Below, one piece after another: positions 43,634 to 47,874 of a stretch of DNA of 64,000 nt. Position 1 is the stretch's first letter. Each line of letters begins with the position of its first letter. The stretch spans positions 124,001 to 188,000 of the forward strand of contig JACMJZ010000012.1 in assembly GCA_014380365.1 (NCBI GenBank). The letters run 5' to 3'. Source of the stretch: Pyrinomonadaceae bacterium (GTDB taxonomy: Bacteria > Acidobacteriota > Blastocatellia > Pyrinomonadales > Pyrinomonadaceae). A program made the position numbers and the translations under genes. The notes beneath the pieces are model-generated. The model was given only the letters and a program-made list of their open reading frames with translations. It was not told the origin of the DNA and ran no database searches.

Positions 43634-45700
43634 ATGCATTCAACTTTCGACGTCCTCACTTCCCTGCGCCAGCATTTTGGTTTCGCTGACTTCCGCGAGG
43701 GACAGCGCGAAGTGGTCACGGCGATTCTGGAAGGAAAGGATGCCGTCGTGGTCATGCCCACCGGCAGCGGCAAGTCTCTCTGTTATCAACTCCCCGCCAT
43801 GATGCTCGGCGGCGCAACCGTAGTTGTCTCTCCGCTAATCGCCTTGATGAAAGACCAGGTCGATGCGCTCCAGGCGCGCGACCTCCCAGCCACGTTCATA
43901 AACAGCTCGATCGCCGCAGCGGAACAAGGCGCACGCATCAATGCTCTGCGCCGCGGCGACTTCAAGCTCGTCTATGTTGCCCCCGAACGGTTTCGCAGCA
44001 GCCGGTTCCTCGAAGCGCTCCAGTCTTTGCGCGTCTCACTGTTTGCAGTTGATGAGGCGCATTGCATTTCAACCTGGGGCCACGACTTCCGTCCTGATTA
44101 TCTGCGGCTGAAGAACGTGATCCAGTTGCTCAACTCCGGACAGACGCCCACGCAAACTCTCGCGCTCACGGCTACCGCAACCCCCTACGTTCGTTCAGAC
44201 ATCATCGAGCAACTCGGACTGGTGAAACCGAGCACCTTTGTAAGCGGATTCGATCGGCCGAACCTGACGATTGATGTCGTGCATACGGAAAAGGAACGCG
44301 AGAAGATCGCGCGTATCAAGCGACTTGCGATTGCCACAGAAGGAACGGTTGGTGGTTCCGGAATCATCTACGCTTCGACGCGCAAAGCCGTGGAGCAGGT
44401 GACTCTGTCATTACGGGAACAGGGACTCGGTGTGGCGGCTTATCATGCCGGCTTGGGCGATGCCGCGCGTGTAAAAGCCCAGGATGATTTCATGTCGGGC
44501 CGGGCGCAGATGATTGTCGCGACCAACGCCTTCGGGATGGGCATCGACAAGCCGGACATCAGATTTGTCGCACACTATCAGATGCCTGGTTCCATCGAAG
44601 CCTACTATCAGGAAATCGGCCGTGCCGGACGGGATGGCCTGCCCTCCTCGTGCGTGCTCTTGTTCAACTACGCCGACAAGAATACGCACGACTTCTTCAT
44701 CGATGGTTCCTATCCGAGCCCGGAGCTTATTAGAAACGTTTACAGCACTCTCGTCGCGACTGGTTTGAAGCGAATCGAACTTTCCGCGTCCGAGATTGCG
44801 AAGCGCTCCGGCGCACGGAATGACATGGCTGTGCAATCCTCGCTTTACCTGCTCGAACGCGCGGGACACATCGCGCGCAGCACCTATGACCAACACGCTG
44901 CCGACGAGCCACCGCCGTGGGAGCCCGGGCAGCCACATCAAGCCGCGACTGCAAACGCTGGGACCGCGGGCGTCTCGCCCGCCGCGTCACATTCAACTGT
45001 CGCCAATCGTGCACGTCGCAGCCGCAGCATCATCATGCTCGACCAGGCGCTGGCTACGAACCTTCGCGTCAACTCAAGTGACGTTGCCCGTCGCGCGTCG
45101 CTGGAGCGACGCAAGCTGCGCGAGATGATTGAGTTTTGTTACACGGAATACTGTTACCGCGCCCACATACTGGACTACTTCGGCGACCCGCATCATGCGA
45201 GAAACTGTGGCACCTGCGGCAACTGCTCGCCAAACTCCGTCGCGCGCACGCCGCTTACCCGCGCCGAAGTCCTCGAAGACACACCGCGCAGCGTCCGCAC
45301 TCGCAAAGCCGGAAAGGATCGCAGTAATTCTTCCGTTGGCGCCTCCACCGGCCTCGTCTCGCCACGCGCGCTGACAACGGACGAGAGTCTACGCGCAAGA
45401 AAAATTTTAGCTTGTGCAGCGCGGATGAAAGGGCGCTTTGGGAAAACCATTCTGGCGGGTACGTTGCGCGGGTCAGCAGCCAAGAGCGTCATGCAAGCGC
45501 ACCTGAATGAACTATCGACATATGGAATCTTGAAGGACACGCGCCAAGACGACCTCCTGATCTACATCGACGCGCTTGTCGCCGCCCGTTGCTTGCGTCT
45601 CACGCCGGGAGCGTATCCTACCGTTTCGATAACTGATTTAGGTGAACGCGTAATGCGGGAGCTGGAGAAAGTGGAACTAGCGCTTCCGTCGCAATCGTAA
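43634..45700 (+). CDS. recQ: ATP-dependent DNA helicase RecQ
   Basis: 688 residues. 3'-5' helicase used in recombination repair. Motifs: QREVVTAILEGKDAVVVMPTGSGKSLCYQLPA (Walker A about 41-48), VDEAHCISTWGHDFRPDY, LALTATATP, FVSGFDRPNL, ATNAFGMGIDKPDIRFVAHYQMPGSIEAYYQEIGRAGRDG. The zinc-binding RQC portion has CYTEYCYRAHILDYFGDPHHARNCGTCGNC. The linker before it (about residues 420-465) is unusual: EPPPWEPGQPHQAATANAGTAGVSPAASHS, and contains a GCGGGCG/CGCCCGC palindrome at 44966-44982, suggesting an in-frame repeat insertion. The C-terminus resembles a winged-helix end rather than a full HRDC domain. The TAA stop lies in a repeat arm. Confidence 0.94.
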   Translation: MHSTFDVLTSLRQHFGFADFREGQREVVTAILEGKDAVVVMPTGSGKSLCYQLPAMMLGGATVVVSPLIALMKDQVDALQARDLPATFINSSIAAAEQGARINALRRGDFKLVYVAPERFRSSRFLEALQSLRVSLFAVDEAHCISTWGHDFRPDYLRLKNVIQLLNSGQTPTQTLALTATATPYVRSDIIEQLGLVKPSTFVSGFDRPNLTIDVVHTEKEREKIARIKRLAIATEGTVGGSGIIYASTRKAVEQVTLSLREQGLGVAAYHAGLGDAARVKAQDDFMSGRAQMIVATNAFGMGIDKPDIRFVAHYQMPGSIEAYYQEIGRAGRDGLPSSCVLLFNYADKNTHDFFIDGSYPSPELIRNVYSTLVATGLKRIELSASEIAKRSGARNDMAVQSSLYLLERAGHIARSTYDQHAADEPPPWEPGQPHQAATANAGTAGVSPAASHSTVANRARRSRSIIMLDQALATNLRVNSSDVARRASLERRKLREMIEFCYTEYCYRAHILDYFGDPHHARNCGTCGNCSPNSVARTPLTRAEVLEDTPRSVRTRKAGKDRSNSSVGASTGLVSPRALTTDESLRARKILACAARMKGRFGKTILAGTLRGSAAKSVMQAHLNELSTYGILKDTRQDDLLIYIDALVAARCLRLTPGAYPTVSITDLGERVMRELEKVELALPSQS

Positions 45701-45774
45701 CGCAAGCTGTTAGTTTGCGGTTTCGCCTGCGCCACGAGTAGGGCAACAATCGCAAACTAACAGTTTGCGTTACG
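45697..45774. repeat. Composite inverted repeat, family K (CGCAAACTAACAG type)
   Basis: Left arm GTAACGCAAGCTGTTAGTTT (45697-45716). Right arm CGCAAACTAACAGTTTGCGT (45751-45770), then TACG. It sits between the convergent recQ and thiG genes; the recQ stop is in the left arm and the thiG stop is 3 bp from the right arm. Confidence 0.85.
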
Positions 45775-45775
45775 T

Positions 45776-46567
45776 TTAGCGAACAACACCAACCACGGGA
45801 CTCGAAGCGCTCGCGTAGAGTCGTTTCGGCATCCGACCGGCGAGGTAGGCCAGGCGCCCTGCTTCTATCGCCAGCTTCATCGCCAGCGCCATCTTGGCTG
45901 AGTCCTTCGCCTCCGCAATCGCCGTGTTCATCAGCACCGCGTCAGCGCCCAGCTCCATCGCGATCGCCGCATCGCTGGCAGTGCCAACTCCCGCGTCGAC
46001 AATGATCGTGGCACCGGGAAGTTGTTCGCGCATGATTGCGAGGTTGGCGGGATTCTGAATGCCGAGCCCAGAGCCTATCGGGGCGGCAAGAGGCATTACG
46101 GCCGGACAGCCGGCGTCTAACAACTTCTTCGCCATGATTAGATCGTCGGTAAAGTAAGGTAGGACTGTGAAACCCTCCTTAACCAACACGCGTGCGGCTT
46201 CCAGCGTTTGTTCGTTATCCGGAAACAGCGTGGTCTGATCGCCGATGACTTCGAGTTTGATGATGTCGGTGTCTAGCGCTTCCCGCGCGAGTCGCGCCGT
46301 GCGAATTGCGTCCTCGGCGGTGTAGCATCCTGCGGTATTTGGCAAGATCGCTAGCGTGGGATCGAGATGATCCAGAAACGACTCAGTGCTGCGATCCAAA
46401 GGCACGCGTCTGACCGCAACGGTCACCATCTCCGCGCCCGAAGCCAGGTGAGCAGCTTTCATCTCTGCAAACGTTCGATACTTTCCCGTACCGATGATTA
46501 GCCGCGACTGGAATACGCGATTCCCGATTTTGAGGAGATCAGTTTCCGCTGCAAGTGCTGTTGACAT
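45776..46567 (-). CDS. thiG: Thiazole synthase
   Basis: Builds the thiazole ring of thiamine from deoxyxylulose phosphate, dehydroglycine/iminoglycine and sulfur carried by ThiS thiocarboxylate. 263 residues. It shows [34 protein letters not shown], the Schiff-base lysine region [13 protein letters not shown] (Lys about 104), [18 protein letters not shown] and [30 protein letters not shown]. The ATG at 46567 is 45 bp downstream of thiS. The enzyme depends on the adjacent ThiS, whose C-terminus is abnormal (see that entry). Confidence 0.95.
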
Positions 46568-46602: not shown

Positions 46603-46628
46603 TTAAGCAAACTAACAGTTTGCGTTAA
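46603..46628. repeat. Half element of family K overlapping the thiS 3' end
   Basis: TTAAGCAAACTAACAGTTTG then CGTTAA: a 26-bp near-palindrome, equal to one arm of the element at 45697-45774. It encodes the last five residues and stop of thiS on the minus strand. Confidence 0.85.
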
Positions 46629-46827
46629 ACCCTCCGCCGACAAAATGCACGATTTCAACCTTGCCACCCTCGTGTAGAATCGTGGCTTCCCAATCAGCGC
46701 GACGTACTACGTTGTTATTTAATTCGACGGCCAGGCGCTCGGATCTCAATTTCAGTATTGCGACAAGCTCCTGAACCGTGGTTCCCGCTTCCACCTCTCG
46801 AAATTCGCCATTAACCTGGATGCGCAA
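46612..46827 (-). CDS. thiS: Sulfur carrier protein ThiS with an abnormal C-terminal tail
   Basis: 71-residue ubiquitin-like protein: [60 protein letters not shown]. In the family the chain ends at the Gly-Gly, whose carboxylate is adenylated and thiolated by ThiF. Here residues 67-71, FNANC, follow the GGG. Those codons and the TAG are read from a family-K repeat arm (46603-46628). So either the tail is proteolytically removed or the carrier cannot be charged. The start is TTG at 46827, 12 bp after the previous gene, with GAGG upstream. thiG follows. Confidence 0.92.
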
Positions 46828-46839
46828 GTGCTTGGAACC

Positions 46840-47874
46840 TCAGCCGGCTGGATGAATCACCCGACGCAATTCGACCGATTGTTCGTGCGCTTCCGCTCGA
46901 ACCACAACCGCGGCTCGCCCGGTTGAAAAGCGCGGCAGGTCGATCGACACAACAGCCACACCATCGCGTTGGGTTTTGACGGAATAAATCTGCGGGCGGA
47001 AAGTGGCACCCAGGACTTTAATTGAAATCACAATACCGCCAAGGGGCTTTTCCGCATCGCCGGAATTTCTTTGGAGTAGGACACGGATAGTCACATTCTC
47101 ACCCGCACGAAATTCTTCGTCATCCAGAATAGTCAACGCGATCTCGGCTACTTGTTTGCGCGCTTTGCCTTGGCGCGAGGGCCGTCGCGAGTCGTAAACG
47201 GTGTACGCAGATTCTAGCGACGATGAAACGCTGGGCCGCGTGGGCGGGTCTGTCGGCAGCGGGAGACTTGGAACCGCGGGCTCCGGGACCGCAGTCTCAG
47301 CTACAACCTGTTCGACTCTTGGCTGCCAATCCGCGCCAGGTCGCGCGGCTGACGTTTCAATTATGAATTCATCTTGAATTTGGACGGGTGGCCGCGCTGG
47401 CGGGACTATTGGTTCGGTTCGCTTCGGCGGCGCTTGGTCGAATTGTGGGGCCTTGGGCTCAGCTGGCGGACGCTCAATCTTGCCTGGTGAAGCAGTTGGC
47501 TTTCTTGTCGGTTGGGCAACCTTCACCGGTGGGGTTATTGGCTCTGATGGCAGTTTCTCAGCCTCTACGTCTGGGGCGCTCGGATTGCGCGCGCCTTCAT
47601 CGCGGCGAACGTTCATCTGCTTTAACTCTTCGATACGCCCCGCGTTAATGGCCGCACAGATTAGCCGGTGCTGACGCTTCAAACGCTCCGCCAGGGCTTC
47701 GTCGGTAAAGCCAGTAGCTATCAAGTCCTGATAGGGGGTTCGCTTGGCGGCGAGTATTTCGCCGCCGGAATAAACGAGCGACAGAATAAGCGGGGAGTCG
47801 AGGCCCTTATCTTCTGTTTGAACGTGATAGACCACACCATCACGCTCGATATCTGTATTGAAACCTGTAATCAC
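46840..47874 (-). CDS. Hypothetical protein with Pro-rich linker
   Basis: 344 residues, GTG start at 47874. N-terminal domain (about 1-95): MITGFNTDIERDGVVYHVQTEDKGLDSPLILSLVYSGGEILAAKRTPYQDLIATGFTDEALAERLKRQHRLICAAINAG, which looks like a compact conserved domain. Residues 95-240 are Pro/Ala/Glu-rich and probably disordered. Residues about 245-343 are beta-rich (EIALTILDDEEFRAGENVTIRVLLQRNSGDAEKPLGGIVISIKVLG), resembling an immunoglobulin-like sandwich. No signal peptide or membrane helix. Function not recognised. It sits upstream of thiS on the same strand, 12 bp apart, so the three genes may be co-transcribed without a shared pathway. Confidence 0.7.
   Translation of the reverse strand: MITGFNTDIERDGVVYHVQTEDKGLDSPLILSLVYSGGEILAAKRTPYQDLIATGFTDEALAERLKRQHRLICAAINAGRIEELKQMNVRRDEGARNPSAPDVEAEKLPSEPITPPVKVAQPTRKPTASPGKIERPPAEPKAPQFDQAPPKRTEPIVPPARPPVQIQDEFIIETSAARPGADWQPRVEQVVAETAVPEPAVPSLPLPTDPPTRPSVSSSLESAYTVYDSRRPSRQGKARKQVAEIALTILDDEEFRAGENVTIRVLLQRNSGDAEKPLGGIVISIKVLGATFRPQIYSVKTQRDGVAVVSIDLPRFSTGRAAVVVRAEAHEQSVELRRVIHPAG

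Follow-up and report, generated by a model that had tools for sequence, protein, structure and literature searches.

The thiS locus and its C-terminal tail

The stretch of DNA analysed here (the window, 64,000 nucleotides) belongs to a Pyrinomonadaceae genome (Acidobacteriota, class Blastocatellia) of 34 contigs and 4.98 Mb that is 95% complete, and contains a thiS-thiG gene pair together with copies of a palindromic repeat, one of which overlaps the 3′ end of thiS. The relevant features are the following.

46840-47874, minus strand: gene for a 344-aa protein directly upstream of thiS, with no Pfam match at E 0.001
46612-46827, minus strand: thiS, sulfur carrier protein, 71 aa (core MRIQ...VHFVGGG plus tail FNANC)
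46630-46638, minus strand: codons of Gly-Gly-Gly, the usual C-terminus and putative cleavage point, read from the sequence
46612-46629, minus strand: codons of the FNANC tail plus the stop codon TAG (18 bases), read from the sequence
46607-46627: palindromic (REP-like) repeat copy of 21 bases, GCAAACTAACAGTTTGCGTTA, giving 16 of the 18 bases of tail and stop
45776-46567, minus strand: thiG, thiazole synthase (PF05690, 352.4 bits)
45698-45777: two more repeat copies, forming an inverted pair whose first bases, TAA, are the stop codon of a recQ-like gene

The thiS frame starts at a TTG codon (46825-46827) and ends at a TAG codon (46612-46614). Its product matches TIGR01683 of NCBIfam (80.1 bits against a cut-off of 37.45) and PF02597 of Pfam (62.4 bits against 22.5), and both matches stop at residue 66, the third and last glycine. 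All three glycines are conserved without exception in 28 ThiS sequences, which were collected with a pattern that itself includes FVGG. An AF2 model with a mean pLDDT of 88.4 predicts a beta-grasp fold of the order strand-strand-helix-strand-strand-strand, with values of 87-96 for blocks of the core and of 59 and 49 for the blocks at the C-terminus. The gene lies beside thiG, whose first codon is found 62 bases past the last glycine codon of thiS. Free C-terminal glycine is required for ThiS chemistry. Instead of ending at its glycines the window gene continues with FNANC, that is, it encodes a putative precursor; despite these residues, the protein is identified as ThiS on the basis of profile, context and relatives.

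The initial annotation, whose interval (46603-46827) begins 9 bases beyond the thiS stop, had described five residues after the glycines and had attributed them to exactly one arm of a repeat. The five residues are present, in the only thiS found in the genome, and the repeat is real; since the copy at 46607-46627 covers only the third base of the F codon, the word "exactly" was a slight overstatement.

With up to two mismatches, the repeat occurs at 85 sites in the 4.98 Mb genome, against none for a reversed control pattern, and with up to three mismatches it yields four matches in the 64-kb window (two of them being the two strands of one site) where 0.02 are expected. Across the genome the palindrome is frequently found as inverted pairs some 40-60 bases apart. 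The genome also contains seven matches to the Y1-transposase family, five of them above the cut-off; Y1-type transposases are the kind associated with REP elements. Repeat copies contribute to gene ends elsewhere in the window as well, the TAA stop codon (45698-45700) of the recQ-like gene at 43634-45700 being supplied by one of them. In a relative (G004) the same repeat lies immediately past the thiS stop, so that the frame there ends before the repeat, and in another (G007) the ThiS tail is a short tandem repeat, as judged by eye.

Sulfur carriers and candidate processing enzymes of the genome

A PF02597 search of the genome returned two matches other than the window gene, both of MoaD type: a MoaD fused to MoaE in a single frame of 269 aa, present alongside a type-B JAMM, and a MoaD/CysO-like protein with an SGG end. 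The search for a second intact thiS, which had been put forward as a possible carrier of the function, was thus negative in this genome, and we rejected that explanation. A single ThiF-family gene, of 339 aa, was found.

A JAMM-type protease, also proposed as something to look for, was found. The genome has a single JAMM/Prok-JAB match, of type B, located outside the window (G000:C5:453301-453642) and predicted from its sequence to be a JAMM/MPN+ metallopeptidase (PF14464, 80.7 bits against a cut-off of 25). Its metal-binding motif is intact: E22, H78-S79-H80-P81, S89 and D92 are invariant across 13 type-B sequences, the catalytic motif being taken here as E, H-S-H-P, S-x2-D. The best-matching PDB sequences are 2kks (1.7e-20) and 2kcq (1.5e-12), together with JAMM1 (5lda/5ld9). 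The desampylase equivalog NF041370 is matched with 81.7 bits, below its cut-off of 130. Among the control genomes of the JAMM search, that of B. subtilis 168 gave no Prok-JAB match, and that of E. coli gave one. The JAMM gene and thiS are on different contigs, and no thi gene was recognised in the open reading frames around the former.

Fourteen matches to the Thi4 family were obtained, all of them short and located towards the beginning of the profile, which we read as a shared nucleotide-binding motif; replacement of thiazole synthesis by Thi4 was rejected because the profile matches such short stretches only.

Genome sets and thresholds

The class set comprises 55 genomes with ThiS, including that of the window. 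A named set was formed by the best 80 of 580 loci, of which 50 were searched for JAMM and 40 for MoaD-MoaE. The phylum draw consisted of 396 genomes, 291 of them with a ThiS match; tails were read in 94, selected among the best matches listed (79 by JAMM status and family, and 15 as loci returned by the search). This choice preceded the reading of tails, but the lengths of open frames were already visible and it was not strictly blind. Genomes were considered JAMM-positive with any strong PF14464 match in the class set (weakest 7e-14), with E <1e-15 in the phylum draw, and with at least 57 bits against the type-B profile in the named set, where JAMM-negative means no match to that profile. Recorded absences of JAMM follow cut-offs that differed between sets and come partly from incomplete MAGs. 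JAMM status was set to unknown for three genomes with weak or partial matches (G080, G099 and G108), two of which are tailed. Four genomes occurring in two sets were merged. One genome (G016) has two thiS copies, with tails of 23 (G016:C193, L008) and 8 residues (G016:C35, L082), the latter copy being excluded from tree and counts.

Tails and fusions among relatives

Relatives do carry tails. The ThiS proteins of Acidobacteriota often have poorly conserved extensions of 1-61 residues or are fused in frame to ThiG or, in two MAGs, to an unrelated protein, DUF3667. In the class set the tails after the glycines measure 0-34 residues and show no conservation except in close pairs (for instance G002 and G010); in one fragmentary genome (G018), a 3 kb contig carries ThiS and ThiG joined in one frame. 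In the named set, tails were found in 29 of 47 Acidobacteriota loci and in 6 of 33 others; five of the six are ThiS-ThiG frames in Sphingomonadales, of which one was confirmed by Pfam, and the sixth is an Omnitrophota genome. Three of the five Sphingomonadales were searched for JAMM and all three have a match. ThiS and ThiG also share one frame in 6 of the 94 phylum-draw genomes, with ThiG recognised by eye, and all six are JAMM-positive. Fusion to DUF3667 is seen in two Acidobacteriaceae MAGs, one of them filed as Acidobacteriales, both of which have a JAMM.

L235:1501-2583 and L244:1501-2595: ThiS-DUF3667 fusions, with a cysteine-rich stretch followed by hydrophobic segments, as judged by eye

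Tails occur in single-contig genomes (G456, tail L; G336, tail AS) and in named isolates (Acidipila sp. EB88, tail L; Sphingomonas desiccabilis, ThiS-ThiG). A Terriglobia MAG with a three-residue ThiS tail has a type-B-like JAMM gene (L300, G088:C90:13294-13683) with an internal TGA.

JAMM types and the MoaD-MoaE fusion

A tree and profile scores agree throughout in dividing the 90 JAMM proteins read from the class into types A and B, the profiles having been built partly from sequences that they scored; one type-B gene (G041) was confirmed by its profile score. A CysO-like carrier shares the locus of type A in 41 of 46 cases, and moaD-moaE that of type B in 5 of 44. Neither thiS nor thiG was found in any type-A or type-B locus within flanks of about 1.5-6 kb; one JAMM locus of the named set (L303) has a weak ThiS-like match in its flanks.

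MoaD and MoaE are fused in all 34 readable genomes with type B (among them G005), and are separate, with a MoaD ending in GG, in all 14 without it (among them G033). One fusion counted among the 34 (G008, L167) lacks the SGG of the MoaD end, which may reflect lost function, an error or another copy. Outside the 34 are one genome with no MoaD in the MoaE locus (G009) and four that appear fused by coordinates only (G039, G042, G046 and G058); six others had no usable MoaD/MoaE pair (G001, G011, G015, G016, G018 and G028). A further genome (G064) has MoaD and MoaE in one open frame by coordinates and no JAMM match.

Co-occurrence of ThiS tails and JAMM

Combined, the sets contain 195 distinct genomes, which with 8 exceptions count as Acidobacteriota from their names or their relatedness to the window. 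ThiS is tailed in 88 of 144 genomes with JAMM, in 1 of 48 without it and in 2 of 3 of uncertain status. The phylum draw by itself gives 30 of 55 JAMM-positive against 1 of 39 JAMM-negative genomes (Fisher p 2.3e-8), and the 38 tail-less JAMM-negative genomes are spread over 12 families. One tailed genome with no strong JAMM match (G240, tail EE) is in 650 contigs, and three family mates in the set have both JAMM and tails. Conversely, 56 of the 144 JAMM-positive genomes have no tail, which indicates that selection on the thiS stop is relaxed rather than gone, and that drift is partial.

The association can be assigned to a JAMM type in the window's class, where tails are found in 32 of 41 genomes with type B and in none of 14 without it (Fisher p 1.9e-7, kinship ignored). 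Nine of these 14 have a type-A JAMM and none of the nine is tailed, so that the mere presence of a JAMM is insufficient in this class. At least six tailed genomes are without a type A that could be seen (G000, G008, G015, G017, G018 and G025), three of the six being less than 90% complete. On both grounds we rejected type A as the trimmer in the window's class. In sixteen tailed genomes of the named set the JAMM is A-related and not of type B, which suggests that the trimming peptidase may differ by class.

Kinship was addressed in two ways. On the ThiS+ThiG tree, tails were modelled as gained and lost at rates that either depend on JAMM or do not. The dependent model was preferred (LR 15.9, p 3.5e-4), and without G240 the preference strengthened (p 6.6e-5), with tail gain near zero where JAMM is absent, although a small number of events can sway models of this kind. 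Independent-pairs tests were not significant. The class provided 7 and 3 pairs, about 2.5 of them informative and all in the expected direction, type B changing only three times on the class tree. The union, for which 122 of 199 genomes were used, provided 6 and 7 pairs, fewer than 1.5 of them informative, and one of its two tests was slightly opposite in direction (0.4 against, 0.2 for).

Interpretation

We consider it probable that a type-B JAMM, kept mainly for its work on MoaD-MoaE, cuts ThiS after its terminal glycines, allowing the stop codon of thiS to drift. ThiS would be made as a precursor with a tail, and a JAMM/Prok-JAB metallopeptidase, of type B in the window genome, would cut it after the terminal glycines. 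The mature form, ending in HFVGGG, would then be adenylated by the single ThiF-family enzyme of the genome and receive sulfur for ThiG. What keeps the peptidase in the genome would mainly be the freeing of MoaD from its in-frame fusion with MoaE; if the enzyme accepts ThiS too, the thiS stop codon comes under relaxed selection, and tails may drift in length and sequence, running here into a palindromic repeat and in other genomes into a tandem repeat, into ThiG or into an unrelated neighbouring gene. The tail, the repeat, the JAMM gene, the MoaD-MoaE fusion and the co-occurrence were observed directly; from distribution we infer that ThiS is cleaved, that the cut falls behind its last glycine and that a single enzyme handles both substrates. 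In favour of this reading are the co-occurrence over all sets and, in the class, with type B, the locus associations of the two JAMM types, the MoaD-MoaE fusion in type-B genomes, the in-frame fusions of ThiS, the rate model, the invariant JAMM motif and the published cleavages of MoaD-MoaE and SAMP1-MoaE. Against it stand the independent-pairs tests and the few changes of type B on the class tree, the lack of thiS and thiG in the JAMM loci examined, the untailed JAMM-positive genomes, the tail of G240, the MoaD-MoaE frame of G064 and the A-related JAMM of the sixteen tailed named-set genomes. The repeat, which the initial annotation had made the heart of the case, loses that place, as it is one of many sequences that fill a freely drifting tail: the repeat-encoded tail of the window would be one instance of the drift, and the fusions its extreme.

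The same evidence bears on how the tail is dealt with if JAMM-B is not responsible. Another protease, either a general one or a type-A, Mec-like JAMM, might remove it, JAMM-B serving only as a marker of the MoaD-MoaE fusion. The unlinked position of JAMM-B with respect to thi genes in the loci examined would agree with this, as would the sixteen tailed named-set genomes with an A-related JAMM; moreover, the MoaD-MoaE fusion and ThiS tails are distributed much alike in the class, so that presence and absence cannot separate a JAMM-B that trims from one that marks. We nonetheless regard this explanation as unlikely, since the nine A-only genomes of the class are untailed and at least six tailed genomes have no type A that was seen, and a general protease would not account for tails in 1 of 48 genomes against 88 of 144. 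Alternatively the tail could be tolerated uncut, for instance by being accepted by ThiF or ThiG, its link with JAMM reflecting shared ancestry. The independent-pairs tests that did not reach significance and the many untailed JAMM-positive genomes speak for such tolerance, to which we nevertheless give little credence: ThiS stops at its glycines in 47 of 48 JAMM-negative genomes, a fusion with DUF3667 is hard to reconcile with ThiS function unless it is cut, and the rate model rejects independence.

The initial annotation had left two outcomes standing, a tail trimmed by a protease or an impaired thiazole synthesis. Distribution favours the former. Impairment, with thiazole obtained by salvage or through Thi4, or with an auxotrophic organism, would follow from the established need of ThiS for a free C-terminal glycine, but the thiS and thiG cores are intact, the Thi4 matches are short stretches at the start of the profile, and tails in 88 of 144 JAMM-positive genomes are too many for decay; tails and fusions are so widespread among relatives whose ThiS core is conserved that we find no support for impairment and think it very improbable. 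An error of sequencing or assembly at the thiS stop codon might be suspected in a genome of 34 contigs and 95% completeness, yet tails have been found independently in many genomes, including single-contig genomes and named isolates; we therefore rejected error, whose probability we judge to be slight in the extreme.

Extending the action of JAMM on ThiS beyond the window's genome, we lean towards the view that JAMM is an obligatory, hitherto unassigned step of thiamine synthesis across much of the Acidobacteriota and, by taking any ThiS precursor as its substrate, has freed the thiS stop from selection throughout the phylum. On balance, this phylum-wide reading seems also to take in the repeats, ThiG and DUF3667 joined to ThiS, in the manner of ubiquitin fusions. 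The same JAMM step would likely operate in the sphingomonads with a ThiS-ThiG fusion. If true, a textbook vitamin pathway would gain a protease step in a large phylum, and JAMM-B would have a role beyond the molybdenum cofactor. The system would further constitute a natural experiment, since whether the stop codon of one gene is fixed could be predicted from the presence of an enzyme encoded by another, and a simple bacterial parallel to the processing of ubiquitin precursors that would explain odd ThiS annotations.

Comparison with known systems

The cutting of ubiquitin-like fusions by JAMM peptidases is already known, and it is the lineage-wide drift of the thiS end that looks new; in open-access literature, where ThiS is indistinguishable from "this", we found nothing on ThiS tails with JAMM in Acidobacteriota. 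In eukaryotes, precursors of ubiquitin and ubiquitin-like proteins have an extension beyond Gly-Gly that is removed before activation. The removal of a tail or partner is the likeness with the system proposed here, and the difference is that the peptidase families are partly other ones and that we claim no conjugation. In QbsE/QbsD of Pseudomonas and HcyS/HcyD of Wolinella, a JAMM removes residues after the Gly-Gly of a carrier; there, carrier and peptidase form a dedicated pair encoded in one operon, and the tail is short and fixed. The window genome differs in that its JAMM is unlinked, its tail is unconserved and its carrier is the ThiS of thiamine synthesis, and, its JAMM lying outside the carrier's operon, it is not a member of this type. 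The type-A JAMM that shares a locus with a CysO-like carrier presumably corresponds to the mycobacterial CysO-Mec+ pair; it differs from the trimming proposed here in that ThiS tails do not follow type A in the window's class.

Part of our proposal has a precedent in a 2006 survey by Iyer, Burroughs and Aravind. The survey notes ThiS-ThiG and MoaD-MoaE fusions and suggests that a JAB protein might free the carrier, yet it also describes the pathways of thiamine and the molybdenum cofactor as completely lacking JAB proteins (PMC1779556). Relative to that survey, what is added here is the phylum-wide distribution evidence, the random tails and the fusion to an unrelated protein.

The closest comparison is with peptidases that act on MoaD-MoaE. 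DRJAMM of Deinococcus radiodurans is reported to cleave MoaD-MoaE, leaving a C-terminal glycine (PMC8832034), and HvJAMM1 of Haloferax to activate a SAMP1-MoaE fusion (PMC4443979). As described there, a JAMM frees a beta-grasp carrier after its Gly-Gly for thiocarboxylation, and the window genome likewise has both a MoaD-MoaE fusion and a JAMM; the difference is the further substrate proposed here, ThiS, with short and poorly conserved tails and no conserved fusion partner. A peptidase needed to release MoaD from MoaE, as reported for Deinococcus and, with a SAMP1-MoaE fusion, for Haloferax, could likewise release ThiS from the residues beyond its glycines.
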